In this document: in pieces, positions 43,101-63,621 of the stretch | How the letters are laid out: the number at the start of each line of letters is the position of its first letter | Position numbering within the stretch: position 1 is the first letter of the stretch | From: Cucumis sativus | Lineage: Eukaryota > Streptophyta > Magnoliopsida > Cucurbitales > Cucurbitaceae | Reading direction: 5' to 3' | DNA: 64,000 nt | Assembly (NCBI RefSeq): GCF_000004075.3 | Contig: NC_026655.2 | Coordinates: 18,461,489-18,525,488, forward strand | Made by a program: the position numbers and the translations under genes | The notes under the pieces: generated by a model | Seen by the model: only the letters and a program-made list of their open reading frames with translations | Database searches by the model: none | What the model was told of the DNA's origin: nothing

Positions 43101-45294
43101 AATCAATTTGTATTTCTTTTGGTATGTTATCCTCACTACCATTATTATTATTATTTTCCAAAAAGGATGTTTCTTACCTTAAATTGAGGTTAAAGAGATA
43201 ATGATGTACCCCTTCTAATTCCATTTTACCCTCCTTGCACCCATAACCACTTCCTTTCTCAAGAAAGAAAAGTGATAAATCATTTTAGTAGTAACAATGA
43301 AGAGTTAAATAAAACAATTGAGTAAAGGTTAAAAAGATGGTAAATATAACTAAGTTTAAATTTAGCTTTTTTGAGTCTACTAAGTGGTAAATTGGAGTGA
43401 ATATTGATAAGAGTCTACTAATAATAGAGTTTATAATTAAATTAAAAAAACGTCATTCATTGTAATTAAAAAAAAAATTTAAAAAAATTGCATATAATAG
43501 TCTATCATTCATAAATCATAAATGTTAGACATTTATCAGCAGTAGAATTTGCTATATTTAGTTACAATTTTTTAAAATTATTATCATATAAAAATGAAAG
43601 AAAATGGACAAAAACAGAACATTTTTTAAAAAATTATTTACATTTAGTAAAAAATTAAGTATAATAAATTTGGTTTTGAGTGATTTTGGTGAAACGGAAG
43701 TAGTTTGTTACCTTTTCTAATTTTTTTAAAAAACCTATAATTAATTATTATAAAATTTTGGAATGATACAAGGGTCATAGCAATGGGTTCTTTTGAAAAG
43801 GAGTAAAAAACCATTTTTTCTTTTAATTTTTAGCGGATGATATTTTTTCTTTTAATTTTTAGTCGATGATACTTTTTCTTTCAGTGCATGTTATTTTATA
43901 AAATACCAAAATATTCACTTTGTCTCGATATAATTATTTCATCTTTAAATTGTAATTAATTTTTGTTACGCGTTTATGAGTTTTAATTATTTTCTACTTG
44001 GTAAAGATATAACCGCTCGTATTATAACTTCTTCCTAATATATTAGAAATCATCAACATTTTAACAAATTTAATCAATCTTATTAATTTCAAAATAACCA
44101 AATTGAATTGAATTTCAAAATAACAAAATTACTTTTTTTCAAAACGTGAATGTTAATGATACATTTAAAATCAAAATAACCTTAATTAAATTTCAAAATA
44201 ACTAAATTATTATTTTTCATAATTGGCCATACATTTTATATCAAAATAAATTTAATTTTGAATTTCAAAGTAACACAATTATTATTTTTTAAAATTGAAA
44301 AATAGCAATCTGTTTGCTATATTATCTCAAGTGGTTTGAATATCAACCTAATCAAGTTTGAAATTGTGTGAATTCAATCATTAATTTTATTTTAGAATAA
44401 GCTTAATTGAATTTTGTTTATTTTGTTTATTTTGAGCTCACATCATTTATGAAAGAAAGAAAACTGGCACTTTCGGCATATTAATTGTGTTCATCCCCAG
44501 GTAGCAACATCTCTTGGAATTAAGCATTAAACCCGACGACCATGATATAGATAATACATATCTGCCTTGTGTAACTTAATATATAGTTCGTATTTGCATG
44601 ATACCATACTAATATTGACATATCTCTTGTTTGATCTCAGCTGGTTTTGGTGAATTCTGACATTCCCGATCCATGTTCCTGAGTTGAAGTTAACATGGAG
44701 AGCTTTTCATAGCATTGATTCCACAGTCGATGAGACGAGTAAGTAAACCTTGCGCTTCCTTTTTATTTTTTCAAGTAGTCTTTTTGTTTTCTTATTCAAT
44801 TTAATGTGGAGTTCATGGTGTTGACTGTTTATCATAATCCAATCAATGCCTTCCTATGGCGTCTCATTCCGTCCAGTGAAAGTCATCTATTTTTGTTAGG
44901 TTGAAAATGGCATCAAATCAAATAATGATTCTTATAAAATTGTTATCACAATTGAACTGATGATATGTTTATGAACAGATCATGATATGTTTAGGAGTGA
45001 TTTTTAACGTCATTTTCATAATCACTTTTAATATATAAATAATCATTAAAAAGTCATTTTATTAGCATGAAAAACGCATTTGAAACTGTAAAATCAAATA
45101 TCGGATTGATTTTTGGTATTTAATATACAACTGTCTATATTTCTCCACTCCTTCTCAATTTTCATCCAATCGTTTGTGTTATATTGTTTAGGGTTAGGTC
45201 TTGATTAAGCAAATTAATAAACAACTTCGATTTTTGAAGCCTGATTTCACTTGTGATCATCTTGTAAGAGTTTGTTAAGTTAGTTGCAATTCAT

Positions 45295-45687
45295 TCAAGC
45301 AGTTCCTATAATATGCTGCTTTAGGATTGGTGGCTTTTCTTTTTGCTGATTCTTCAATGGAGCTGAACCTTTCTCAGCCTCTTTCACAATCTCATGAACT
45401 CCGTTGGCCCTCCATATGGAACTCTTGTGATTCTCAATGGGTGTAATCCACTTATCCTTTTCTTGTCATTAATTTTTGTAGCCTTTCTATCAGAAACTGT
45501 GAATGATATCCCAAACTTGATTTGATGCAAAAGTTCTTACCTCCATTCTTTCCTTTGACGCCTTTTCAAGCTTCTCTGTTGCGTCAAGTTTTTGCCTTAT
45601 GAAGTTCTCGACTCTAAATGATTTCGCTATCGTTCGAGCTCAGTCCCTCTTCTTCGTCTTTGTGTTTTTGTTCCTTGTTTTGGCCAT
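45295..45687 (-). pseudogene. Decayed two-exon gene for a Lys-rich coiled-coil protein
   Basis: On the minus strand an ATG at 45687 gives MAKTRNKNTKTKKRD and then an in-frame stop. The same frame continues beyond it as VENFIRQKLDATEKLEKASK to a good donor (GAG/GTAAGA) at 45541. A matching acceptor at 45457 leads to a second exon, 45456-45295, reading DKWITPIENHKSSIWRANGV and ending ILKQHIIGTA. The phase is kept across the intron. The charged helix-forming composition is unlike the chance frames around it. I do not recognise the family. It could be a pseudogene, or a live gene whose first exon I have placed wrongly. Confidence 0.4.
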
Positions 45688-47514
45688 GGTTGGGGTGAAG
45701 ATTTTGAGTGCAGGTTTGGAAATTTTCAAGCTGTATTATAAGGAAATTCAGAGGTGTTTTTTTGTATTCTCAAAGACCTCAAATCTCATGATAAAGCTTA
45801 TTAGAAAAGCCTAAGCAGTGTGGGAAATAAGCATCTGTTGTAGGCTCAAATTTAATTATTACTTTAAATCTATTCATAATATCACTAAAGTCGTATTTAT
45901 TTTCAAATGTTTTTAGCACTCAGAAACAGAGAATCTTGAAAATGGTCCACTGAACTAATTTATCTCTATCTTTGCCTTTTATCGTTTCTATGTTATAGTA
46001 AAAGGACTGCTAGAAACAATTTTTAAATCTTCCTTTCCCTCCTACATTTTTTATTAATTCTCATATTTTTTGTCGAGCGGTTGTAACTTTTCAAGTCAAA
46101 TCTTAAATGATTTAGTGTATTTGATGTTGATGGGATGCAACTCTTCGAGATAACTAGGATGTATCTGTTCAAAGTAACGACGTGTTACATTAGTGCGTAT
46201 CTTTTATTCTTTCAATGTGTATATGTGGAGTGAATGTGTGTAAAAAAAAAACAAAATTAGTACATATATTTATATTCTTAAAAAATTAATTGAAATATTG
46301 AGATCCAAATTTTTGGAGAAAACATTTAGAAAATAAAAAAGTTTAATTGAATGAAAGTAATAATTAATATGATGAAATAATGCATCATTTTGAGCTTTAA
46401 AAACATTAGAATAAAAATGATTGCATTATGTATGAAAATACTATAATAAAAATGAATACATTATCTAATTTCTAATTTTATTTATTATAGGTTCAAAAGT
46501 TACTATTGAAAAAAATTAATTGAAACTACAAGATTTCAGGTATTTGCTAACAACTAATCCGATAAAAGTACAATATCATGATTTATATAAGCACTCAGTT
46601 TTGGTCTAAAACAAGCAATATTTTAGAAAACAGTGTGTATTAGCTCTTAGCAATTTGTTTTCATTATAATCGGCAATGTGGGAAAACCATTGACTTCGAA
46701 ACAAACCCATTAAAGCACAGCAAAGTAAAAGCAGTGCCCATTGGAGCACACATTTGTTAAGTTTCCATGGCTTGCAATATTACACTATACACATGACGTT
46801 TGAAAATTATTTGTGAAGTAGAAATTTTTCTAAGTTTTAAAAGAAAGTTGGAACTTGAAATGGTGCATTAATGATCTAGAACAACTAACTATCTAACTTT
46901 TCGTCCTAAGTCACTACCACATGATTCAATAACATGATTTTCATTTGAGATCGTAGAGGATTTTCTACATCAAGAGTGGTTTAAAATATTTTATATGAAA
47001 AGTCAGAGGACATGTTTGAGAGGATGGAATGAAATGAGTTTGCAATGAGTTTTAATTTTAAGTCCTTGTTTAGATTGGATGCTTTGGATCTGGTTTGTAA
47101 TACAAAATCAATTCACTTTCCACCGTTTGCAACTTTATTCTCTTTCTTATTGTTTTGACACCTCATGATCTTATACCTCTGATTCTCCGCTTATTCAAAC
47201 ACTTCTCAATTTCTAGTAATTCCATTTCTAACTATTGAAAGTTTGAGAATCTTTTTTAAACAAAAGTATAAGCTTCCAAAGTGTAATGCAAACCAAGACA
47301 ATTGATGTAAGAAGGATTGAGGCAACTCATCTGCAAACTCTCTAAGGAGATTTATTGAGGATAGTCATCGATCCAAAATGATATATCATACAAATTTGGT
47401 ATAGAATATCTCATAACTGCTAAATAAAGTTTAAACATTGAAGAACTGATCATAGTGACAAGCTTCGTAAGCAAGCATGATATACAGTAGGATTGAAGTC
47501 ATGGTGAAATAACT
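45688..47514. other. Non-coding spacer
   Basis: No supported gene. The part at 45.9-47.0 kb is AT-rich. The 47.0-47.5 kb part has more even composition and probably includes the 3' UTR of the coiled-coil gene ending at 47515. Confidence 0.5.
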
Positions 47515-50500
47515 TCAAATCTTCTTCAAACCAGATAAAAATTCTTGAATATCATCCAGCTTAGCATTAGAGAAACCTGCACAACAGAAACAAGCATCAA
47601 CGAGCATGTGAGATATGATATTCAGCTTCAGAAAAGCTAAAAGCAGCTTCATTGATAATAAAGTAGCTTGAAAATCCTACCATTGTGATGGTGAGAGATG
47701 TCTCCATTTGTATGAACCTTCTCTACTTTAGCGAGCTTGGTTTCCTCCGTCCTCCTTTTCTTCAGCTTTCCTATTTTCGCACGAAGCTCCGATGCAGTTC
47801 TGATAATTTCTGAAAGAAATCAATACATGTTAAAATTCTGCTTCCTACAATAATGAATAACTTTTATATATACCTGCCGACAGTTGAAGTTTCAGTACAA
47901 CGAAATTTAATAACTAAATAATAAATTCTGTCCAAGTGGCATTCAAAATGAAAATAGCAAGAGAAGTTGCCTTAATTATTCACATACTCCAAGAAGCTCC
48001 TAAATGGAATGATTTTACAGGTGTTAAGTGTCATTTGGAACTATTAGAGTTTGTGTCAGCACGAGATACGCAAACCAGGATGATCTGCTGGAGGAGAACA
48101 TTATTTGTATATTTCATTTCGAGGATACCCTTTCATGAGTGTACGTGTAGAGTAGTGTGCATGTAAACCCAGGAGTGCACACTAGTACAAAAGTGGTCTA
48201 CGACGACAGTTATTTACTGTCGTGAATGGATTTCGCGACAATTATTTTCAGTCATAGAAGCGGGAGTCATGGAAAGGCCTTCGACGACAGTTTTTGAAAA
48301 CTGTCGCAATAGGTTATTTTATGACATGAAATAAATGTCGTTAATCAACATTCAACGACATTCAATAACTGTCATAATCTATTTTATGACATTTAATAAC
48401 TATCATCATTTCTTTATTAACGACAGTTAAATAATTGTCACGAATTCTATTATTGTGACATGTATTAATTGTCATGAATATGTTTTTTGCGACAGTTTTT
48501 TTTGTAAAAATGTCATTGTTTAGTTATTGACGACATTTTTTTCCAGTCAACGATTGTGCAATCGTAACAGTTTTTCGATAACATTAAATGTCATTGTTTT
48601 GCCATTGACGATATTTTTTTTTCAGTCAAATATAATGCAATCGTGACAGTTTTTTTTGAAAAAAAATTGTCATTGTTTATCTTATGACGACATGTTATTC
48701 CTGTCACATATAGAGCAATCGTGACAATTTATTTTGTTAAATAACTGTCATCGTTCTCCAATTTACAACAACTATTAACTATCACAAATTCTTTTGTTAC
48801 GTCATTTATTTCCTGTTCCACATTTCTCAATTTCCTATAGTTTTTTCCTGTTCTCCATGCAGCTCCACCATTACACGAACCATTAGATTGACAATAATGT
48901 AGCTGAGAATGACAATTTTGAAATTATACAAGTTTCACACCAATGTACAAAAAAATAGCCAACACTTTAATATATATACACTATAATACGATTTATAATA
49001 TTTGTACATCTTAATACAAGTTTCAATAATCCACATGTACAAAATACTAGGCCTTAATCAAAAAATATTTTAAATAGCATTCGAATATATTTGACTAGAC
49101 CAACCGAGAATGTTCGTTTCTGGAAATGATATTTGAAGTTGTCCACTCCAGTTGAACCTACAAAGACAACCTGAATATAAGTATCCATAACACATACACA
49201 GTCAATCAATAACTAAATCAATGTCTCAACAAAATACAGAACATAAACAAGAACTTCAACACTTGATTCCATGAAATGAAAAGAGAAGACCATGAGGACT
49301 ACATTAGGCAAACACAGCAAACAAAAACATACTGCTACTCTTTCTCTCTAGAATACACATACCAAAAACATACCCCATCTCACTCTCCCATTCTCTATCA
49401 AGGAGAAGAAGAACGTCCAACCAAATGGCCACTGCAAATTGAACAACTTCTTGGGTTGTTCCTAGTCCTTAGAACAAAACAGCCTACGACAATACATGTA
49501 CGACAATTTGTAATCCTTAGAGTTGAACAGTTTGTATTATGCAATCATCGCCAATAAAGATGAACTATGAATAATCATGTACCAATTCTCTCAAATTATT
49601 AAAACGAATAGGAAGATTACAGCAACTACTCAGGTTCAGGAACAAAAAAAGTGCTACAGGTATTGACATACCATTCATTGTTGGTTTGCGACAATGTAGG
49701 TCTATACCGTCTTACTTGAATGAAGTGCCCAGCATTATCCCATGTGTATGACAAAGCTGTCCATATTTTGGAAGACCGCAGTACTGAATTACAAAAACCA
49801 ATTAGACAGCACATTGCAAAAATATACATCTCTAATCCCCAATCCATATATTAAACATTCAAAGGTAGTGAACCAAGGACACAAGCAAATAATCACCTTC
49901 AGCAGTTATTTGATTGCAAGAAGATTCATATCCCAATGCAGTATGGCACCAAATACCAAAATTCTATGAGCCAGTCACATATATATCGAACTCTTCCTAA
50001 GAAACATATAAGCAAACACACATTCATATCCACTTACTTAAAAGCAAGTCACATATACTTAGATGTGATAAAATTACCATTCACTTACCCCTTTCATGCT
50101 TAAGTCTGTTCAAAAGAATGCGCTTAACATTTTCTTGTGTGTCGTTCGGGTTTAACAAAATTATATTAACAAAAAACCCCACAAAATACTTCAAAAAATG
50201 TTGTTTCCTAATCTGGTGCTAAGCACGTACATCGTGCTTAGAAAGGAACTCCGCCAATTCCGATCTAACTTCATCGATTTCATCTTGACAGTACGTACGA
50301 GGTAAACTTTTCATCTGTAAATAATGAAGTCGTTAAGAATTATTTTCATTCCAAACAATGACATAAAGTGGTTCGAAAACTCTAATACTTACGACATCTA
50401 CAATTGAAGTACTCCTCGAAGAAATTATGTCCCGCATGAATCGCATAACATAGTATTCGCATTCTACCACCCCATTTTGTTTGGGACACTGGATGTAGAA

Positions 50501-53500
50501 TACAAAAAATACATGTGAAACGTTTAAAATAATAACTTATTTACGACTACCATACTGGTCAATGCCACATACCTTAACAACCTTCCAACTCGGTTTTTTC
50601 TTCTTTGATATATTGAATGACCTACCACATAATATAAGATTGTTACATAATTAAAATAGTTGCACACATAATAAAGACATTAACGACAATAATATGACCT
50701 ACATTTGAAGCACTTCACTCATGTCTCCGTCAATCCGATTCTTCAACGGGTCAATCCAATATGCAGCACCCTTTGTAGGATTAACAACGACCAATGTCCA
50801 GTGATTGCTAAGAACACATTTCCACCATTATAAATTAATATTTTAATAGTGAATTCAAATCGTGAATGTTAATGAAAATGTCATTATCATGCGCTTACCC
50901 AGAGTTGTATGGGAACAATACTACTTGGTCATACTCGGCTCCGAGAAGTCGAGCATTCAACAACTGCGCACGCGATTGTTTGTAACTCGAGTAACTTACA
51001 GATCCGGCATCCATGAACTTGAACAAGCTTGAACTTCGTCCTTGTACCATAATTGTGTGAAGGTACCTACACAATGAAATGACATTACAATTAAAAGGAG
51101 ACCGCAACCATCAATGACGTATATATATTAAAAGGAAATCTTACATCATGTAAGCATCTAGGCATGATGTGCATATTGGCTGCATTGACGAGAAATCCCT
51201 AAGTGACTCAACCATAATGCAACATTTTCTCTTCACACCGAATAGCTCTAAAGGCGTGTTTAGTTGAATCGATGACCCCATATGTTCAACGAGTCTAACC
51301 AAACACCGGAGTGCCACTGGAGCACGTAGATATGCTGCACTAGAGAATGTGGACGGATCCGTATTGAAGCCCACAGTTTCCTTCTATCACAAAAATTTCA
51401 ACTACTGTTAGTATAATTTGATGCATAAAAACTCCAACACAATAAGACAGACAATTACCTTATCATTCCTAGTAAGAACAAGATGTCGTGGCCACATTAA
51501 ATGTGATCCGACTTCATGCGTCAGTTTCGTGACTCCTTCCTTTGTCGGATTTGGAATCACACATTGGCCATCGAGGACAACATCCACTGATACCTTGATG
51601 TTCTCACCGTCACCTTCACCTTCAGCATCAAATATTGTCCCATGTGCAATGATAGTATCTTCAGTTTCAAACGCAAGCATACACGGAGTTCCAACCTACG
51701 TAGAATTATATGTTAAATATGTGCACGTAAAGTTAGTCAATACGTTTTCAGGGTTATGTCTAACTTCTTACAAGATTAAACACGTATATAGAATTGTTGT
51801 GGAGCAGTGTGCCTTAATTATTAAAGTATACTTTAAACTGACCTTCAAGTCACTTGATCTTGTGTCCCCCACATTTTATTCTTTGTTCACTTCTGTCACA
51901 ACGTCAGCCGCTTTATCTGGTACTGAATCAGAGGCTACGTCTTCAGTCTCATCATCTGAAACCCCTTCAACTGATGGTGTTCCTTTCGAACACATACTAG
52001 GGTCTTGTTCTTCTTCATCTCCTTTTGCACACTCATCTTTTTTCATTCTATGCAACTCCGCTTCTAGCTCGATAATTCGTTTGGCCATTTGATCACGTTC
52101 CTCATACACTGTCCTCTCCTCATTACCTTCTTTAGATTCCATTGGGGTATGGAAATATTTTTTCTTAGTCACGTACTTCCCCACGCCTCGGAGTATGCCC
52201 GGACGATCTTTCCCTCCCAATGCCTGGGTGAGAACATCGTCACCACCAGATAAACTACGTCCCTTCTGGTTGCCCATTAGATCGTCCTAAAATAGTGCAC
52301 GAAATGGAAATTAAAAGATGTGAAACCATAGTAACAAAAAAACATGGAAATCATAAGTTGCCAAATTTTCTCAACTTGTTAACTTACAATGAGATTGGCA
52401 ACGTCCATCGTCTCTTTATCTGGGAACTCTCCCTTACGATCCAACCGTGCATGTTTCCATACTATCGATCGATCTATTTGATCTGACGAAGAAGATGCAC
52501 GCTACATAAACAGTATATGTTATATTTGGAATCTAACATCATGAAAACAAAGAACATCTTTAAGGGCAGTTACTTACCAACTCCTCAACCAGATTTGCAT
52601 ACCCCTTGCGAGATGTTCTATGGTTGTATTTGTACAGGCTCCTTTTCAGTTTACCATCTTCACTTTTTTTCTGTAGAAAAAGTTGTATAACCTCTATTAA
52701 ATTAACATATTTGTGTAACAAATTGTACATAAAGTATAAGAAAATGTTTGGATATCCATACGTACTTCAAAATCTTCCTTCAACCGTGAAGCCACAAATT
52801 CATCCCAATGGTCTTGATCGATGAATGAGTATTCCGCTGGTGGGTGTTTTAATTTCTCCACATCGTCCTTAAATGGAAGTACGTACGTAGTTGTTAATCT
52901 CGACTTGAACCCACGATAGCATACTCCCGCGTTTTGAAGTATGCTTTTCTTCGACTTGGGGTCAAGAATGAAGCCGGCCTACAAAAAAAAAAAAAAATCA
53001 AATGTATTAAATCTGTTGAAGTTGGTAGTTTAACCTAAAAACAGTCAATAAGAAGCATTTTTACCTCAATCAATTCATAAATTTTTCCCTTCATCTCTAT
53101 TGGAACAACATGCCAAGTAGAGTACGTGATAGGAACGTGAAACCTTACGGTCGTTCCAATAAAACTCTTCAACTTCGTTGCATTCGGTCCAATCGGTTGA
53201 CCTAGTTCATTGTACTGAATAACCATTCTCCGTCCCTCACTACTAAAACGTGTTATATCTTTCATTCCCGTAGGGCCACGTTTCTTTTTCTGGCTACTAG
53301 TTTCCCCTCTTTGAATGGGTGTAGCAACCTCATCATCATCTGAATGAACCATTACTGCAAACATACATGTGATTTAAAACATAATACATGTGATTTAATT
53401 GTAAATGTGAAATATGAAATAACCAAAAAAGTGTTAACATAACTAAACATTAATAAACCCTTGTTTCTCAAAGAAAATAGGAAACAATTCATACAAACTT

Positions 53501-56500
53501 AATTAGGCAAAATTCACACTAAATATGGTAAAGCACATAACACTTTCAAATTAGAACATCTACTACATAAAATTCTCCGAAATTTGAAAACAAAGAAAGT
53601 ATTGAACATGAAAAGAAAACTTGATAACGGTACATTCTGAAGTAGTCATCTCTGAAAATGGAATAGTCCTACAAAGAAGAAAAAAACAACAATGATTAAC
53701 TCATTTGTGGGGATAGTCAATTGGTAACCCATGTGCCTTCACAGTCAGGTCTAGCATATGTTTCACCACCTTCGTCATAATCAAAAGTTGTGTGGTAAGA
53801 AGAGAGTGGGGGATAGTGAGGCAAGATGTCACTTATGTCATCATCAACACATTTGTGGGGAAAGTCCTTCTCGGGTGGCATCACAACAACCGACCATCTT
53901 GGATCAACAGGATCTGTGACATAGAATACTTGTCTTCCGTGTGTGGCAATAATGAACGAATCTGAAGAGTGGCCAATTCGACTAAGGTCCACCAGTGTGT
54001 AGTTCAGATCGTCCTTTCGAACACCAGCATTATTTTCAACCCAATTGCATTTGAAAAGAACAACCTTAAACATATTGTAGTTGACTTCCCAAATCTCTTG
54101 AATGGTGCCATAGAAAGACATGTCACAGAGACGACCGGGTTTTTGTCCTTCGCACTTGACACTTGCATTGTTGTTGCGACTAGCATAATCCCACTGTTTT
54201 GCACCGTTCAGTAGTCATCACGAGATTTTGTGTGATAAGACGTTCCATTAATTATGTATCCGTCGTACATCATTAAAGCAGGGTGGGGTCCATGTGCAAG
54301 CCAACGTATGGTGTTCGAGAGAACCTTCCCTTCCTGTAGTTCACTCATCACCTATTGAATAGAACAATTAGTCGTTCTAAATATTGAACAATTAGATAAA
54401 ACGAAAATAAATTTTTGATTGGGTATGTACCTGATCCCTAAACCATGCACTGAAGGATCGATTATGTTCAACTTGTAGCTACTGTTCATTTTTTGCTCTT
54501 CTGCGATTTTCCATCTTTAATTGATTGAAATGTTGCCTACGAAATGTTTCATACATTAAATTGATGGCTTGAGGATAACAAAACGACAGTATATACTCAT
54601 AAGAATGCTTACTCAACGTATGGGTGCACTTCTCCAATGTTCTGTAGGACATGAAGATGTGCTTGCTTGAGTTGTTGGACATCGGGTCGAACGTATGTTC
54701 CTGCTGATAGCGGTCGATCGCTTTGTATTTCTGTCCTTGAATTGAGTGACCCAAGTCCAATAGGATCTAATCCAGAAAGAAAATCTGAACAGAATTCAAC
54801 TGCCTCCTCGCATATGCTTGCTTCTGCAATGCATCCTTCCGGTCGAGCTCTACTGCGAACATAACTTTTCAACACTTTCATGCATCGTTCAAATGGGTAC
54901 ATCCATCGCAAATATACTGGTCCACAAAGCTTTACTTCTCTAACGAGATGAACGACAAGGTGAACCATGATTGTAAAAAACGAGGGTGGGAAATACTTCT
55001 CAAGATTGCATAAAGTCAGAACTATATCTTCTTGAAGTGCATCAAGATCTGAGACAGAAAAACTTTTGGCACAAATCGCATTGAAGAAGAAGCACAATCT
55101 ACTAATAGTGTACCTCACATTCTTCGGTAGGACTGAACGTATTGCAATTGGAAGCAGTTGCTGCATTAAAACATGACAGTCGTGCGACTTAAGGCCGGTC
55201 AGTTTTAAGTCATCCAAAGAGACACGACTACTAATATTTGCTGAATAACCTTCTGGAACTTTAATTTCTGACAAAGTCTTGCAAAATCGATACTTCTCTT
55301 CTTTTGACAGTGTATAACATGCCGCAGGGATATAAGTTCTATTACCAGTAAACGTTGGTGCCAATTCTGGTCTAATTTTCATCTCAACCAAGTCAAGTCT
55401 AGTATTCATCCCATCCTTACTTTTTCCTGGTATATCAAGTAAGGTGCCCACTATGTTCATGCATACATTTTTTTCAATATGCATTATGTCTAAACAGTGT
55501 CGAACATGCAAGTGTTTCCAATATGGTAGTTGAAAAAAAGCAGGTCTTCTTTTCCAATAGTCATTGCCACCTTCATTATGCACAGTCTTCCCACACTTCT
55601 TCCCACATGAAAATATCATGTCTTTCATCTTAAGGTACATGGCCTCGCCCGACAAGGGTTGTGGAGGAATTCCATGCTCTTGCTTCCCATTAATTTTTTT
55701 TTTTTTTGTAATCTGTATGGATGATGTCTTGGCAAATACTTCCTGTGTCCCATGTATGACATTTTCTTTCCATGTTGCAATCTTATAGAAGTAGTCTCCT
55801 CTCCACATATTGGACAAGCCTTATATCCTTTCACACTAAAACCGCATAGATTACCGTATGCTGGAAAATCGTTGATGGTCCATAATAAGACAGCCCGCAG
55901 TGTGAAATATTCTTCCTTATATGCATCGAAACAACGAACTCCATCCGTCCACAACGTTTGTAGATCATCAATTAAAGGTGCTAAGTACGTATTGATATCG
56001 TACCCCGGTTGCTTTGGACCTGATATTAACATTGTCAGCATCAAATGTTTTCTTCTCATACACAGCCATGGTGGAAGGTTGTATGTTGTAGTGATGATGG
56101 GCCAACAACTGTACGTCGTTGACATATCTCCAAATGGGTTAATTCCATCAGTAGACAAACCCAAACGGAGATTTCTCGGTTCTGACCCAAAGGTTGGCCA
56201 CATGTGGTCTATCAACCTCCATGATGGAGTGTCAGCCGGGTGTCTCAAAACACCATCAACTTGTCTATCTATCGCATGCCAACGCAAGTTCTTAGCATTT
56301 TCAGATCTCTTGAACATTCTTATAAATCTTGGAATTATTGGAAAGTACCACATCTGCTTAGCAGCCACACCACTTTTTTCCTTCTTTGAGTTCTTAGCGA
56401 TCTTCCACCTTGACAAACCACACTTAGGGCACTTGGTCAACTTTTCATATTCTTTTCTGTACAAGCAACAATCATTAGGGCATGCATCAATCTTTTGGTA

Positions 56501-59500
56501 ACTCAGTCCTAGGGCACCAAGTGTTTTCTTCGCTTCGTACAAAGAACATGGAATTTCATTGTTATCAGGTAATAGATCACTTATTATGGACAGCAATTCA
56601 GAGAAGCTAGTATTCGTCCAACCATACCTAACCTTCAGGTTATACAATCTCACGAGGGCTGATAACTTTGTGAATTTCTTACATCCTGGGTATAAGGGTT
56701 TCTTCGCGTCATCAAACATAGTGTCGAAGGTATTTGATGCATTAAAAGATTGTTCTTGAACAGATTGTACCATATTAATTGTATTAAATAAATCGTCGTT
56801 TTCATCAGTTTCATCCACTGTAGTTTCCATCGTGTTGGCAACGTTATCTGAGTTCAATTCTTCACCATGCCAGAACCATACCTTGTAACTCTTATCAATT
56901 CCATTGGCATACAGATGATACCGAACTGTTGAGACATCCTTAAGTAAACGATTGCCGCAATTCAAACATGGACATCTAATTGAATTAAGACCTTTGGCAT
57001 GACTCAACCCAAATTTAATGAACCTTTCGACTCCTAAATCATATTCTCTTGACATCCTATTTTGGGTCATCCATGACTTGTCCATTGTGTGGAGTTCTAA
57101 GTTGGCCTCGAAATAAACCTGATTACAAAAAGAGATTATAGGCAACAACTTTTAAAACTCAAACTTTCAAAAACGGTAGATAATCCTCAAAGTACTTAAT
57201 AATTTATTACGAACCATTTAGGAATTTTCTTGAAGGAAACTTATGGACTAGGTTCAACAACCCCCAATTATTCTAAAACATTTCAAGGACAATTTCGTTT
57301 CCAGACATGATGAATGATGAAGGGAATTAGTTGACAAATAATTATAACAATAGTTTGTCCTTAGTTAGTTGATTAGGGTAGGTTTGTATAAGTACGTTGG
57401 CTTACATTGTACAAGTAATTAGACTAATAAGCTAACTCAGAAATTAAAATTGAAGAGAAGCAAACCGTTAGAAAACACAAATTGAGCATAAATCAAATTC
57501 ACAAAATAAGATCATGTGCTTGCAAGAACAAATTAAGGTCATATAACAGAAAATCAAAGATTAATGACTGAAATTGGGATAAAATCAAACTCAAGAAACA
57601 ATCCAATGGAGACAACGAAGAACTTCATAGAGAGAGAGAGAGAAAGAGATAAGGAAGAGAAGCTTACCGGCGGTTGGGAGGGGTGAGGACCGACGCCCAC
57701 GATTTGAAGGTTCGGGTTGATTGGAGACGTTTGGAGAAGACGGGGGTGGTGGCGACGGGTTGGTGGAGAAGGTTTCGACGGACGGCCAGGAGGGGGTGGT
57801 GGTGCCGACGGGACTTCAGACGGTCAGAAATGGGAGAACGCCGACGGGAGGAGAGGGAGAAATTGGGAGAAATTTCGGGGAGAGTTAGGGCACACGAATG
57901 GAAGGAGGATTTTGGGGAAAATTTTGGGGATTTTGGGGAAAAATTTGGGGATTTTGGGGAAAAATTTGGGGAATTTGGGTTTTTTAAAAAAAATAAAAAT
58001 GTAATTTTAATTTTTTAAATATAAAATAATAAAATTTTTAACCCTAACATTCTATGACATTTAATAACTGTCGCGAAAAGTGTTTTCCGAAAAATTCCGT
58101 ATTTTCCCGTCAAAAACGCGAAATTTTATATTTCGTGACAGTTTTTTTTTCTTCCATTCATTTTTTGAGATATATAACTGTCATTGTAGGGTTGTTTTCT
58201 TCTAGTAGCAGGAAGAAAAAATTGAATTTAAGCACATCTTAATTACCCTGGGAACATGTCATTCACAGAGCTTAGCTCATATAATTGTAATGCTTCGTTG
58301 AAATGACTGATATGGGAGTTATTGGAAGCAGTTTGCCTTTCCAAAGCTTGTAGTTCTTGGTTTAATACAATATTCTCTTCTTTGACATGGAGAATATATT
58401 TCCTCATGAAATATGATTTACATGAACGCACGTGTTAAACATACGACATATTCAATACCTCGAAGAGCTTATTTCTCAAAAGATCTAGCTCTCTGTATCC
58501 AGATCCATGTCATGGTCATGACTCATTGAAGTGACACCAGGTAATTCATCCTAAGACAACTTAAAGAAAATATTTAGAACCCAATAATCAGAAATATGTT
58601 TATTGGCTATTGCATTAGAGGAAGAAAAAGTAGTAAAAGAACACAGACTCGATTAAAAGAACACATGGACTCAATTAGCCATAGCTCAAAGTTCTCAAAC
58701 AAGATGGGAACCATTGATAATTTAGCATCGTGATACAATAAGATACTGTGGATTCCAATGAGATGCCATTGAAACAGACAGAAGTTGACCAACCCCAAGT
58801 AAACTATATTGGTGCAAAATGAAAGGAATGAACTGGATCTTACATATGAGACTTCAAATGTAAAAAGAAAAGGCATGATGTCCCAGTGACAGATTTTTAA
58901 AAGTGCTGCAGCATTTGGTCGCATTCATTTTAGAGCTAATTTAAAACCAATATTTTACAATCACGACCACATTCTAGTTACAATGGAACCACGTTGAGTT
59001 ATTGCTACCAAAATGAGGAAGCTCTCAAGTTTGAAAATATCTAAACTCATGATTACATCTGAAAGTAGCAATGAATATATCTGCAACAAAAATTGAAACT
59101 CAATGATGCACAGTAACGGGCTTTCTCCTCAAAATTTGTTCATCGGACGATAACCAAAGATTTGGGGAAGCTATCAAGGTGAGTATACAAAAATAAATGG
59201 GAAACTGGCTGCATAAGCAACCAGCCAATTTACATGCTAAGTTATATAAATAGAGAACTTTTGAAGAAGGAAAGTTATACAAATCTCAACTATCTTTTAT
59301 AAACACATAAAAACATAAAACTTTATCTATTAATCTCAATATGAATATTACTTGAAGCAATATCTACTGCAATTCAATAGCTAATTTAAATAATTCCCGT
59401 TAGTTTATTGTTTTACATGAATATGTATGTTGATATAACATAGATATAATTGATATACTACAAACTAAGGGGGTGTTGGCCGAGATTCTAAAATGTTTAA

Positions 59501-60888
59501 TTTTGTAAAAGAAAAAACTATATTAAAAAATGGTAGTGTTTGACAAATTAAAATAATGCATTTTTTTAAAAAATCTATTTTGAAGAAATTTTTAAAAACC
59601 AAATTCACGTGTAAACACTAATAAAAAAGTCTAACCGAATATTAAATGTTTAAATTTTAAACTCATTTCCAAACAAGTGTTTAAAAGTAATGTATTATTG
59701 AAAAATATTTGGTTTTTAATTCAATCACAATAAAATTCACGTATTGATACCGACCTAGATATTTTATTCTTGGGTAAAGAAGTCAGGATACGGTGGACGA
59801 TAGAAGAAGAACCTACATTTGAGGCTAAAGAAAAACCTTCCGGCAAAAAAACGATTGATTAAGATAGTTGTGTATATATATGCCAACAGGTTATGCCTTT
59901 TCCCTTGCACCCACTATGTGGAGTGGCAGACGTCACCAAAAAGAACATTGGTCTGCTTAAATCTGGTTTGAAGGTGTTAGCAACTTATAGAAATGGTTAC
60001 AAAAATTCACAAAACAAATCTTTTATTTGTTTTTTTAAATGTACCACTTTAATAAAACTTAAGCAAGAATTAATAACTATGGGTGACATAAAACACATTT
60101 TACATAAAACAAAAGTGAATTTGCATAATGCAAAGTGGAGTGAAGGTAGAGATAGAGTATGTAGAGAAGGTGGGAGAGTGGTGACTAAAAATAAAAAAAT
60201 AGTGAAAAATTTGTGGGGGAAAATAGGGAATGAGAACTTTTTAAAATAAGTAAATTAAAATATTAAATTTAAAATCAAATTTCTTTTAAAAAGTAAAATA
60301 AAGTAAATAAATAAATTGAATGAAGGTGAAAAATTGAAAATGAATGGACAAAATGAGATAGAATGGATTCACAATTGTTGTTCGTGTTCTTGTTGTTCAG
60401 GCTCCTTTTCAAAGATTTAATTTTCAAGCTTGTTGCACATTTTCTTGAGGTTCTTCCACTTTGGTCAGTTAAGAACAATGGTTGTAGGATTAGTTTCGGA
60501 CGTGGTAAGGAGTGACAATAAAGTGTTGAGAATTTATTTTATATATACCTAATAAGATGAATATATGCCCGAGAATATATGAATCTGTATTTATAGCTAG
60601 GTCAATGATGCTGTTATATCTTTACTGGTTGAAAAATAATTAAAGGTTGATAGATGCATAAGACAAATTAATTACAAAAGAAGAAAAAGTAATTAGATGG
60701 ATGATTGTATTTACATAATTAACTGTACCGTCTCCATCCTCCACTTACCAAAATCTGTTCGAGTTCGAGCACTGTAGGATGAGGACGAGAGAGTTGGCCA
60801 ACAATGTGCAGAAAAATCATACCTGTGGGACACACTGAGGTAGCTGCTTCATCTTCATTTCATAGTCATATTCATCTTCTTTTCTCAT
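47515..60888 (-). CDS. Uncharacterised coiled-coil protein gene interrupted by a CACTA element
   Basis: A minus-strand gene seen only in part. The first exon 60888-60823 reads MRKEDEYDYEMKMKQLPQC, ending at a CAG/GTATG donor. Later exons are about 58491-58459 (ELDLLRNKLFE), about 58374-58247 (IVLNQELQALERQTASNN to NDMFPG), 47799-47681 (TASELRAKIGKLKKRRTEE to GDISHHHNG) and 47576-47515 (FSNAKLDDIQEFLSGLKKI, stop). The last three join cleanly in phase. The protein is heptad-rich, with a Lys/Arg-rich patch and a short C-terminal helix. I do not recognise the family. Exons between 58.5 and 60.8 kb were not resolved; the acceptor near 58375 has an alternative at 58407, and a 23-nt micro-exon may lie at 60771-60749. 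The CACTA element occupies the intron between 58247 and 47799, which would otherwise be about 420 bp. The gene is head to head with BIO3-BIO1. Confidence 0.5.
48197..48790. repeat. Left subterminal motif array of the CACTA element
   Basis: Roughly 600 bp hold about twenty copies, in both orientations, of a core ACGACAGTT or its complement AACTGTCGT, with variants such as GACATT and TGTCATTG. Often two copies face each other around 4-12 bp. Such subterminal arrays bind the TNPA-type protein in En/Spm elements and bring the ends together. The matching right array lies at 58045-58187. Confidence 0.8.
48791..50218. other. Non-coding interior of CACTA, left side
   Basis: Between the subterminal array and the stop codon of the protease gene. 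It is AT-rich. Plus-strand open frames at 49276-49557 and 49742-49969 show no known motif. It probably contains the 3' UTR and terminator of the protease gene. Confidence 0.5.
50219..53352 (-). CDS. CACTA second gene: En/Spm-type protein with C-terminal Ulp1 (C48) protease domain
   Basis: A multi-exon minus-strand gene from ATG 53352 to the TAG at 50219. The N-terminal part (RGPTGMKDITRF, NELGQPIGPNATKLKSFIGT, AGFILDPKSKKSILQ) and the segment TQALGGKDRPGILRGVGKYV are typical of plant En/Spm-family proteins. A Glu-rich coiled coil follows near 52.0-52.1 kb. The C-terminal exons give a Ulp1-like fold with a readable catalytic set: His in SNHWTLVVVNP, Asp in AYWIDPLKN, Gln in QCPKQNG and Cys in VECEYYVMRFMRDI. 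The last exon ends ELAEFLSKHDVRA. Exons join with ordinary GT-AG sites, near 53352-53065, 52979-52768, 52287-51843, 51696-51461, 51384-51143, 51066-50899, 50810-50700 and on. An in-frame stop near 51878, after VTEVNKE, breaks the frame between the two halves, unless splicing removes it. Ulp1-type proteases cleave SUMO from proteins; the role in transposition is unknown. Confidence 0.75.
53717..57085 (-). pseudogene. CACTA TNP2-type transposase, degenerate
   Basis: Minus strand, start at MDKSWMTQNRMSREYDLGVE (57085). Domains in order: transposase-associated N-terminus (IRCPCLNCGNRLL, then YKVWFWHGEE); TNP2 core (TNTSFSELLSIISDLLP, CPKCGLSRW, LRWHAIDRQVDGVLRHPADT, LGLSTDGINPFG); DUF4218 (LDALQEDIVLTLCNLEKYFP, YLRWMYPFERCMKVLKSYVR); DUF4216 (WVENNAGVRKDDLNYTLVDL), ending at 53717. 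Damage seen: a shift in frame at a 14-base T run (55694-55707); an in-frame TAG near 54479 where EQ*LQVEHNRSFSAWF should read through, apparently Trp to stop; an in-frame TGA near 54212 in RDDY*TVQNSG; and a further shift near 54115. An intron lies at 54607-54539. The protein cannot be made whole, so mobility would need a relative in trans. Confidence 0.85.
57150..58044. other. CACTA right interior, transposase 5' region with G-rich tract
   Basis: Upstream of the TNP2 start. It is AT-rich to 57.65 kb and then strongly G-rich on the plus strand (57660-57900), with a run of spaced GGGG blocks at 57914-57979. Plus-strand frames at 57674-58018 are translations of this G-rich DNA and are unlikely genes. 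It probably holds the transposase promoter and leader. Confidence 0.5.
57914..57979 (+). repeat. Tandem GGGG/ATTTT repeat, potential G-quadruplex
   Basis: Six GGGG runs plus a final GGG, separated by 5-8 A/T bases alternating between ATTTT and AAAAATTT. The unit GGGGAAAAATTTGGGGATTTT is repeated about twice with variants. The spacing allows a four-tetrad quadruplex on the plus strand. Confidence 0.8.
58045..58187. repeat. Right subterminal motif array of the CACTA element
   Basis: Contains TATGACATTTAATAACTGTC, CGTGACAGTT and TATAACTGTCATTG, the same core as the left array, ending about 20 bp before the right tip. The array is much shorter than the left one, an asymmetry common in CACTA elements. 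Confidence 0.75.
58570..60740. other. Introns and unresolved exons of the coiled-coil gene
   Basis: Exons of the minus-strand coiled-coil gene should lie here but could not be placed with confidence. A minus-strand frame ending ASPNLWLSSDEQILRRKPV near 59105-59180 looks protein-like. The 59.4-60.5 kb part is AT-rich with short plus-strand frames (for example 59893-60249, Lys-rich) that I do not consider genes. Confidence 0.35.
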
Positions 60889-60972
60889 TGTTTATGGCTA
60901 TCCTACTTTCACCTCCTTTCTCTGCTCCCATCTCTTTCCCTCCATCTCCCTGACTTCAAGCCCACCACCATC
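60889..60972. promoter_or_regulatory. 84-bp divergent start region between coiled-coil gene and BIO3-BIO1
   Basis: The two start codons, 60888 on minus and 60973 on plus, are only 84 bp apart. No TATA box is seen on either side. The plus strand is C/T-rich (CTCCTTTC, CTTTCCCTCC), typical of TATA-less plant promoters with pyrimidine patches. Transcripts probably start in or across this segment and may overlap at their 5' ends. Confidence 0.45.
60895..60954 (+). other. Upstream ORF in the BIO3-BIO1 leader
   Basis: ATG at 60895 gives a 19-codon frame (MAILLSPPFSAPISFPPSP) and then TGA, 18 bp before the main ATG and in the same frame. If the transcript starts upstream of 60895, it could damp translation of the main ORF. 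If the transcript starts later it is irrelevant. Confidence 0.35.
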
Positions 60973-63621
60973 ATGCTTCGCCTCCGCCGCAACTTCCATC
61001 TCTCCCGCCACCCTCTTCTCTTCAAACCCTTCTCCACCGCCGCCCCTCTGCCTCCTCTTCACCTCCCACTCTCCCATCCCACTTACATTCTTTGGGGCTC
61101 CAATACCTCCGTTGGCAAAACCTTAGTTTCCGCTGGCCTCGCCTCCTCCTTCCTCCACTCCGATTCTCCTTCCAATTTCCTCTACCTCAAGCCCATCCAA
61201 ACCGGCTTTCCTTCCGATTCCGATTCCCGTTTCGTCTTCCATAAGCTTTCCTCCCTATACCGACGCCGCCACGCCCGTCTCTCTCTTCTGGCCTCCGATC
61301 ATGTTCTCAATGCCTCTCTCCCTGTTCTAAACTCCATCACTGGTTGCGGAGATGGGAGTGAATTGGCAATGTGCGAACTGGGTCAGTATGAAGAACAACG
61401 ATTGGTGGGGGAGGAATCCGGTTTGGGTTCGAGGTTAATTTGTAAGACCATGTATGCCTGGAAAGAGGCTGTTTCTCCGCATTTAGCTGCTGAGAGGGAA
61501 AGCGGGGTGGTGGACGATGCCCTTGTGATACAGTCGCTGCAGAGTTGCTTAAATTCTGGATTGGGAGTGAATGGGGAGAGTGAGGGTGCAGAAACCAGAG
61601 CCATGTGTCTCGTCGAGACAGCCGGTGGGGTTGCTAGTCCAGGCCCATCTGGGTCCCTTCAGTGTGATTTATACAGGTTCCAATAACATTCTGTCATTGT
61701 AGCATACCACGTAGTATTGATTATTCTATTAGTACTTAGTACTGCATAACCATCTTTCATGTTTCTTTCTATTTTTAAATTAAGGGTGGAGCACACCACA
61801 TGGAGACTTTTTACCGGTTGCAAAAATGGAAAAATGCCATGGCTAATTATTGGCTTTCCGAAAGAAAATTTCACTTCTATAATTTAAATTTCACTACCAT
61901 GGGTAATCGTCAAATGTGTAACTAATCTGAATTCGTCTCAGTTGGATTCTGGATTTTTGTAGATGTGCCAATGCCAAGTTGGAGCCTTTTGAAGATAACA
62001 TTTTCTCTTAACGTGTTAGTTACTTAGTTTACAAGACCTGGACCCTCCGTTGCTCGCATTGTCTGGTGCACCCTGTTGTTTGTAATGAATATTCTGTATT
62101 TTCTTATCATGCAAACGACATCTTCACTGAGGCTTTTATTATGCTATTTGTTTCCTGTGCCTCTTTTTTTCCATTAAAAAACTTCTCTTTGAGTTTCCTT
62201 TATCTTGTAACCCTTTTTGCGGCAGGGCATTTCGGTTTACTGACTAGAATACGAAATGCTAAATGTATTTTGTTTTATTCTTTATATTCTGTGACTCTGA
62301 AATCTATAATTGAACTTTAATGAGTAAGAAATCATGATAAAGAATGAGTTGTTTATATATTTTACAATTTTCTCAGAGTGATGGTGTTAAATCATGGTTT
62401 GTATATAGCATGTAAGTTTACTTGAGTCCCGAGTTTCAGATCTTCATTTCTTTCTATCAGGTCTTTTCGTTTACCCTGCCTTCTTGTCGGTGATGGCCGG
62501 CTGGGTGGTATTTCTGGGACAATTTCAGCATATGAGACCTTGAAACTTAGAGGCTACGATGTTGCTGCCATTATCTTTGCTGATAATGGCCTTGAAAATG
62601 AGGTGGTGCTAAGTTCTCATCTTCGTGATAGGTAAACTGAATTACTTCTGATTGTTAGTGTTACTTCACAGGAGGAAAGTAAACACGCAAGTATACGACA
62701 TCGTGTTATTCTATGGCATTAATATTTTCTTAATAGGAAATACGAGTGTATCAAATAAAAATGGTTGCAGAAGTGAAGGGGATAATGCCTCACCCAAGCA
62801 AAGCCCTTAGAGGTATAAAATATGGCCCTCAAATGGTATTATTGAGGAGTAAAAAAAAAAAGTGCTAGAAAGATATCAATGAGAGGAAGCCTGTAACACT
62901 AACATGTACAAAGTTGAGAAACCCATAATCTCTCTCTCACGCCAAATATCCTATATGAGGGCTCGACAAGCATTCAAATAAACATGTCAAGATTTGCTTT
63001 TTAAGTATATTCCTTCAAAAGATTGGATGCTAAAATCCAGTATATTTCTTGGTATGCACTTGCAAGTTGCAACATGAAAAATAAACCAAAATTTCTTTTA
63101 ACTTTAGGAAATTTAACTATTCAGATATACTTTACCACCCATATTTGAGTCCTGTTGGTAGGGCCAATCGGTATTGCTGATAATCAACCAAGTTGCCTGT
63201 TACCACATTTCCGCAACGTAGTGGCTGCTAGCATGACGTCGTTTTTATTTCATTTTCACCGATAAACCATATTGTTCTCATCTACCGTTGTAATTTTCTT
63301 CACTTCAATGTATATTTCAGCTTTGAGTTGAGGCATGTTCATTTATTTTTTACTTTTAGGGTGCCAATTCTGGTGCTACCTCCCATTCCTGCTGATATAA
63401 CAGACGACCTGATGGATTGGTTTGATAACTCTCAGAACGTATTTGATTCTCTGAAGGAAATAATGTTATCAGCTTATTCTAAAAGACTTAACAGATTGCG
63501 AGAAATGCCAAAAAAGGCAAAGAGTATTTTTTGGTGGCCATTCACCCAGCATAAACTTGTGGCAGATGAAGCTGTTACAGTAATTGATTCTCGCTGTGGT
63601 GAGAACTTCACTGTTTTCAAG
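60973..63621 (+). CDS. BIO3-BIO1: Bifunctional dethiobiotin synthetase / DAPA aminotransferase, 5' part
   Basis: Three exons, 60973-61676, 62461-62631 and 63360-63621, all joined with AG/G phase 2 junctions, give the first 379 residues. The gene runs off the window. Residues 1 to about 25 are Arg/Leu/Ser-rich and look mitochondrial. The dethiobiotin synthetase half has the P-loop GSNTSVGKT at 42-50, the substrate-side motif KPIQTG, and ETAGG at 215-219 followed by SPGPSG. The aminotransferase half starts with the signature WWPFTQH at 350-356. The enzyme carries out two successive steps of biotin synthesis in mitochondria: KAPA to DAPA, then DAPA to dethiobiotin. The order BIO3 then BIO1 in one protein matches the plant fusion. 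No break was found in the part present. The rest of the aminotransferase domain, with its PLP lysine, is outside. Confidence 0.95.

Follow-up and report, generated by a model that had tools for sequence, protein, structure and literature searches.

Intronic CACTA and other elements that alter transcripts are already known, as the accessible parts of two reports describe (PMC1947982, PMC10241880). In soybean, Tgm-Express1 lies in intron 2 of F3H, and the available text on it reports mixed and normal splicing (PMC1947982). In Arabidopsis, intragenic transposable elements supply poly(A) signals to chimeric TE-gene transcripts, according to the accessible part of the report (PMC10241880). The cucumber locus described here resembles Tgm-Express1 in having a CACTA-type element in an intron, and the Arabidopsis chimeras are a general precedent for it. 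However, Tgm-Express1 carries gene fragments, and both its host, a flower-colour gene, and the Arabidopsis loci are transcribed, whereas the cucumber host is a pseudogene. This pseudogene derives from the kinetochore gene MIS12. The Arabidopsis MIS12 mutant is listed as lethal in the accessible part of PMC12595034 (AtMIS12, AT5G35520), and an intact copy is therefore expected in the genome. Among the listed titles and abstract openings of papers on cucumber MIS12, cucumber CACTA pseudogenes, intronic CACTA elements and AtMIS12, no description of the locus was found.

The window, that is, the whole stretch of DNA analysed, covers 64,000 nucleotides (C1:18461489-18525488), and the genome searched comprises 226.6 Mb in 88 contigs. 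We consider it very probable that the window holds a truncated and dead duplicate of MIS12 which later received a CACTA insertion, and that intact MIS12 lies elsewhere.

Extent, ends and relatives of the CACTA element

The element and its parts are as follows.

48180..58207, minus strand: CACTA (En/Spm-type) DNA transposon of 10,028 bp, from tnp2 domains, target-site duplication, empty-site comparison, sibling places and tips
58208..58210, minus strand: target-site duplication TGC at the element 5' end; a single TGC stands at the matching point in the element-free paralogue
48177..48179, minus strand: target-site duplication TGC at the element 3' end, from flank comparison and tip comparison
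55625..57151, minus strand: first part of the transposase (Transpos_assoc and Transposase_21/tnp2), from open reading frame and Pfam
54609..55820, minus strand: second part of the transposase (DUF4218), in a frame other than that of the first part, from open reading frame and Pfam
53717..54214, minus strand: DUF4216 part of the transposase gene, from Pfam

An earlier note on this DNA had proposed a CACTA element of about 10 kb inside an intron, in the same orientation as its host, and all of this was borne out. The element runs from 48180 to 58207 with a tnp2 transposase and TGC duplications, the flanking exons correspond to the adjacent exons 5 and 6 of the intact relative, and element and host both lie on the minus strand. 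The right tip, which had been placed about 37 bp from the exon donor, was measured at 39 bases. By coordinate arithmetic, subtracting the element and one copy of the target site leaves an intron of 406 bp (416 bp if the acceptor chosen in the earlier note is used), close to the roughly 420 bp suggested there. The corresponding intron of the paralogue has 457 bp.

Like plant CACTA (En/Spm) elements, the window element encodes Transposase_21 (PF02992, E 9.4e-88), Transpos_assoc (PF13963, E 3.8e-21), DUF4218 (E 9.7e-43) and DUF4216 (E 3.2e-20), the first two of which identify the tnp2-type transposase of CACTA / En-Spm. It also has a CACTA-type 3' tip, a 3-bp target-site duplication (TGC at both ends, with a single TGC in the paralogue) and short subterminal repeats, which form families and inverted pairs in two intervals, 48185-48771 and 58046-58187. 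Four small open reading frames in its second gene region gave no Pfam match above the cut-off. Two features are unlike plant CACTA elements, namely the T at the 5' terminus (TACTAG) and the transposase halves in different frames.

A genome search with the element found at least 14 match pieces at no fewer than seven sibling places, with 83–98% identity; these counts are lower bounds, as the scoring took in 7 of 1044 candidates, and the window's own copy was absent among the matches listed. The K2P distances from the window element were 0.008–0.048 for 14 sibling loci, which are overlapping pieces of the seven places, and 0.008–0.014 for the nearest four, with the nearest two at 0.008 and 0.011 over 2.2 kb. 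CACTAG stands at each of the six sibling 5' ends seen, one terminal base different from the window element, and two of the six, both on C7, have a common flank. The window 3' end is CTAGTG (inverted CACTAG), as in two of the three other 3' ends seen, and the remaining one (C3:23.96 Mb) is CTAGTA. In the window element (base 58207) and in sibling copy L018, one tip has its outermost base altered in the C-to-T sense. The partial copies L022 and L023 on C7 (5.97 and 6.65 Mb) have an identical 5' flank in the bases shown, and because this flank is common to both, one of them probably derives from duplication of the other's site or from assembly.

The end of the first transposase half and the start of the second stand in a single frame at two of the seven sibling loci examined; a frame change was found in the junction region at two others, and at three this region is only partly present. 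The window element is probably not autonomous and perhaps immobile, because its transposase is split over two frames and its 5' terminal base is altered.

An element-free counterpart with intact MIS12

Searches with the left-flank and right-flank DNA, run separately, converged on one other place, C1:1.947-1.949 Mb. There the matches to the two flanks, which end opposite window bases 58208 and 48179, have three bases in common. When the joined flanks were aligned to the paralogue, one TGC was found where the window reads TGC-element-TGC, and with the second TGC set aside, 34 identical bases run across the insertion point. The region C1:1947408-1953745 is a natural empty site and shows the insertion and both of its ends directly. 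It is the counterpart of a longer stretch of the window:

44435..59863, minus strand: duplicated segment (the element and other insertions excepted), matching C1:1947408-1953745 in eight match pieces with 74–86% identity (BLAST)

Within this segment, 45290-45687 is a broken copy of a small open frame of 156 codons, which is whole at C1:1950990-1951460.

The intact gene at C1:1946941-1949539 has seven exons, GT-AG introns and a 717-nt open frame, and it is free of the element. Its 238-aa protein matches Mis12 (PF05859, E 3.3e-35, profile positions 2-203 of 231; Pfam). This copy is like plant MIS12 (AtMIS12; accessible part of PMC12595034) in having the Mis12 family domain, and it was named by this domain. 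In contrast, the window copy is truncated and broken, and the complete Mis12 domain beginning at the start codon, present in the intact copy, is absent from it. A six-frame genome search with the 238-aa protein gave 12 matches, nine of them with E <= 0.01, all at the intact locus or in the window. The other three were window exon 7 (E 0.023), exon 2 of the intact copy (E 0.073) and a place on C3 (E 0.085, 23% identical), and the last was taken as a chance match. A PDB sequence search with MIS12 gave seven matches, all at chance level (best E 0.074).

Remnants and lesions of the window copy

The following remnants of MIS12 were placed in the window.

59731..59863, minus strand: exon 3 remnant (3' half) and the beginning of the next intron (BLAST, 74% identity, E about 2e-15)
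58459..58550, minus strand: pseudo-exon 4, with a 2-bp net insertion (frameshift) and an in-frame TAG
58247..58386, minus strand: pseudo-exon 5, with the acceptor AG changed to AT at the paralogue's site and a 1-bp insertion before the donor
47681..47809, minus strand: pseudo-exon 6, starting as in the intact copy (47799 in the earlier note)
47515..47576, minus strand: pseudo-exon 7 with the former stop codon, from alignment to the intact copy

The homology of the exon 3 remnant rests on BLAST, and the joined-flank alignment does not place this remnant sensibly. Upstream of 59863, BLAST found no homology to the intact locus, and the window copy thus ends in the middle of exon 3, without exons 1 and 2 and half of exon 3. 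The sequence upstream of this point could have been lost after, rather than during, the duplication. The introns align along with the exons at about 85%. With introns kept, frameshifts, a stop and a lost acceptor, the window copy is most likely a duplicated, non-processed pseudogene. A repeat of about 260 bp at 59469-59730 lies in the pseudogene and is absent from the intact MIS12 locus; it occurs in at least 38 other places with 79–86% identity (40 of 496 candidates scored), and it is a second, MITE-like insertion. Pseudo-exons 6 and 7 are well kept, with identical runs of 83 and 44 bp against the intact copy, a degree of preservation that is also compatible with gene conversion or with a copy that died recently.

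The host had been read in the earlier note as a working coiled-coil gene with the element in a late intron, where splice and poly(A) signals of the transposon could truncate or change the message and remove the last 60 residues. Several features agree with such a gene. The donors of exons 5 and 6 are GT and the acceptors of exons 6 and 7 are AG, element and host share one orientation, and the proposed join of 58374-58247 with 47799-47681 is indeed open and continues through exon 7. However, the AG on which this join depends (47801-47800) lies 10 bp beyond the conserved acceptor in the downstream direction (AG at 47811-47810), and with the conserved acceptor (exon start 47809) the window frame meets a stop. 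The source of the frame mismatch is the 1-bp insertion just before the exon 5 donor, and the join is most plausibly open by chance, through this extra base together with an AG close by. The start codon and exons 1–2 are also missing, exon 4 contains TAG, the acceptor of exon 5 is lost, and an intact element-free gene is present elsewhere. A functional-gene model over 58.4-47.5 kb was rejected on the missing 5' exons, the stop, the lost acceptor and the shifted-acceptor join, and we regard a working gene as very improbable. The host is a 5'-truncated and frame-broken MIS12 copy, most likely a dead duplicate, and the claimed effect of the element on a host message is unsupported. An origin of the two exon groups from separate genes was also rejected, as alignment to the intact copy identifies them as exons 5 and 6 of what was once a single gene.

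The stretch 60844-61686 is the beginning of a divergent gene that encodes an AAA_26 domain (Pfam) and that we take to resemble plant dethiobiotin synthetase / DAPA aminotransferase BIO3-BIO1. Its open frame starts at 60844, about 1 kb from the truncated end, and the transposase frames are directed at pseudo-exons 6–7. Both observations could suit a young gene fragment that would still make RNA, for example from a region common with the divergent neighbour or by CACTA read-through into pseudo-exons 6 and 7, and the accessible report on Tgm-Express1 describes mixed transcripts from an intronic CACTA element (PMC1947982). Against such a fragment, a Met in exon 6 of the intact copy is Ile in the window copy, and we consider this reading very improbable as well. 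Small or long RNAs from CACTA silencing or from read-through into pseudo-exons 6–7 would match the only intact MIS12 gene in runs of up to 83 bp, and that they tune this essential kinetochore gene in trans is hardly to be expected.

Divergence, order of events and meaning of the locus

The window copy and the intact copy were compared over 138 codons, leaving out gap-touching codons and the stop codon. The dN was 0.045 and the dS 0.055, giving a ratio of 0.82, whose nearness to 1 is only weakly bounded because the underlying changes are few (14.5 nonsynonymous and 4.5 synonymous). The 19 exon substitutions fall on codon positions 1, 2 and 3 as 3, 8 and 8, with no difference between positions 1 and 2 taken together and position 3 (p 0.46). 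After columns near gaps and poorly aligned columns were removed, the K2P was 0.050 in exons (18 of 372 sites) and 0.096 outside them (116 of 1298). Without this filter, 19 of 417 exon sites differed versus 238 of 1900 in the rest (Fisher p 4.5e-7). Since exons differ less than the rest, at least one copy has been conserved. An exon divergence about half of the non-exon divergence is what one would expect with one copy conserved and the other free to drift, and there may have been a period of constraint on both copies.

By these distances, the element parted from its nearest copies (0.008–0.014) apparently long after the duplication took place (K2P 0.096). A donor can look younger than its true age, and the sibling distances give a date for the insertion only on the condition that those copies did not come from the window element. 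Most likely, duplication and decay came first and the insertion followed, and the element therefore probably landed in a dead gene.

The most probable course of events is that a chromosome piece of roughly 6 kb around MIS12 was copied on C1 from the neighbourhood of 1.95 Mb to that of 18.5 Mb, and we infer this direction of copying. The piece would have come without the MIS12 promoter and exons 1 to mid-3. The window copy would then have decayed through frameshifts, a stop and a lost splice acceptor, and presumably has no function. Afterwards the 10-kb CACTA element would have entered the former intron 5 by ordinary cut-and-paste, duplicating TGC. Intact MIS12, which lacks the element, is still in its own place.

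Capture of the duplicated segment in another transposon was also considered, and about 1 kb just outside each end was searched. The right outside end (upstream of 59863) had at least 39 matches besides itself, the longest listed being about 210 bases at 68%. At the left outside end, where 40 of 363 candidates were scored, repeat matches were among those listed. Nearly all of at least 140 other match pieces fall to 43841-44297, a satellite- or TE-like repeat next to the duplicated segment; most are 70–77% identical, and C4:11.5-12.9 Mb, C5:16.0-16.9 Mb and a number of small contigs hold many of them.

The case of a CACTA element in an intron of a probably dead MIS12 duplicate is an ordinary one, because the host is a broken and truncated duplicate and intact MIS12 exists elsewhere without the insert. 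As far as can be read from the DNA, it has no bearing on MIS12 function. It offers a clean example of a CACTA insertion whose natural empty site is found elsewhere in that genome, and it is a warning that a gene model over 58.4-47.5 kb would give a false gene with a 10-kb intron.
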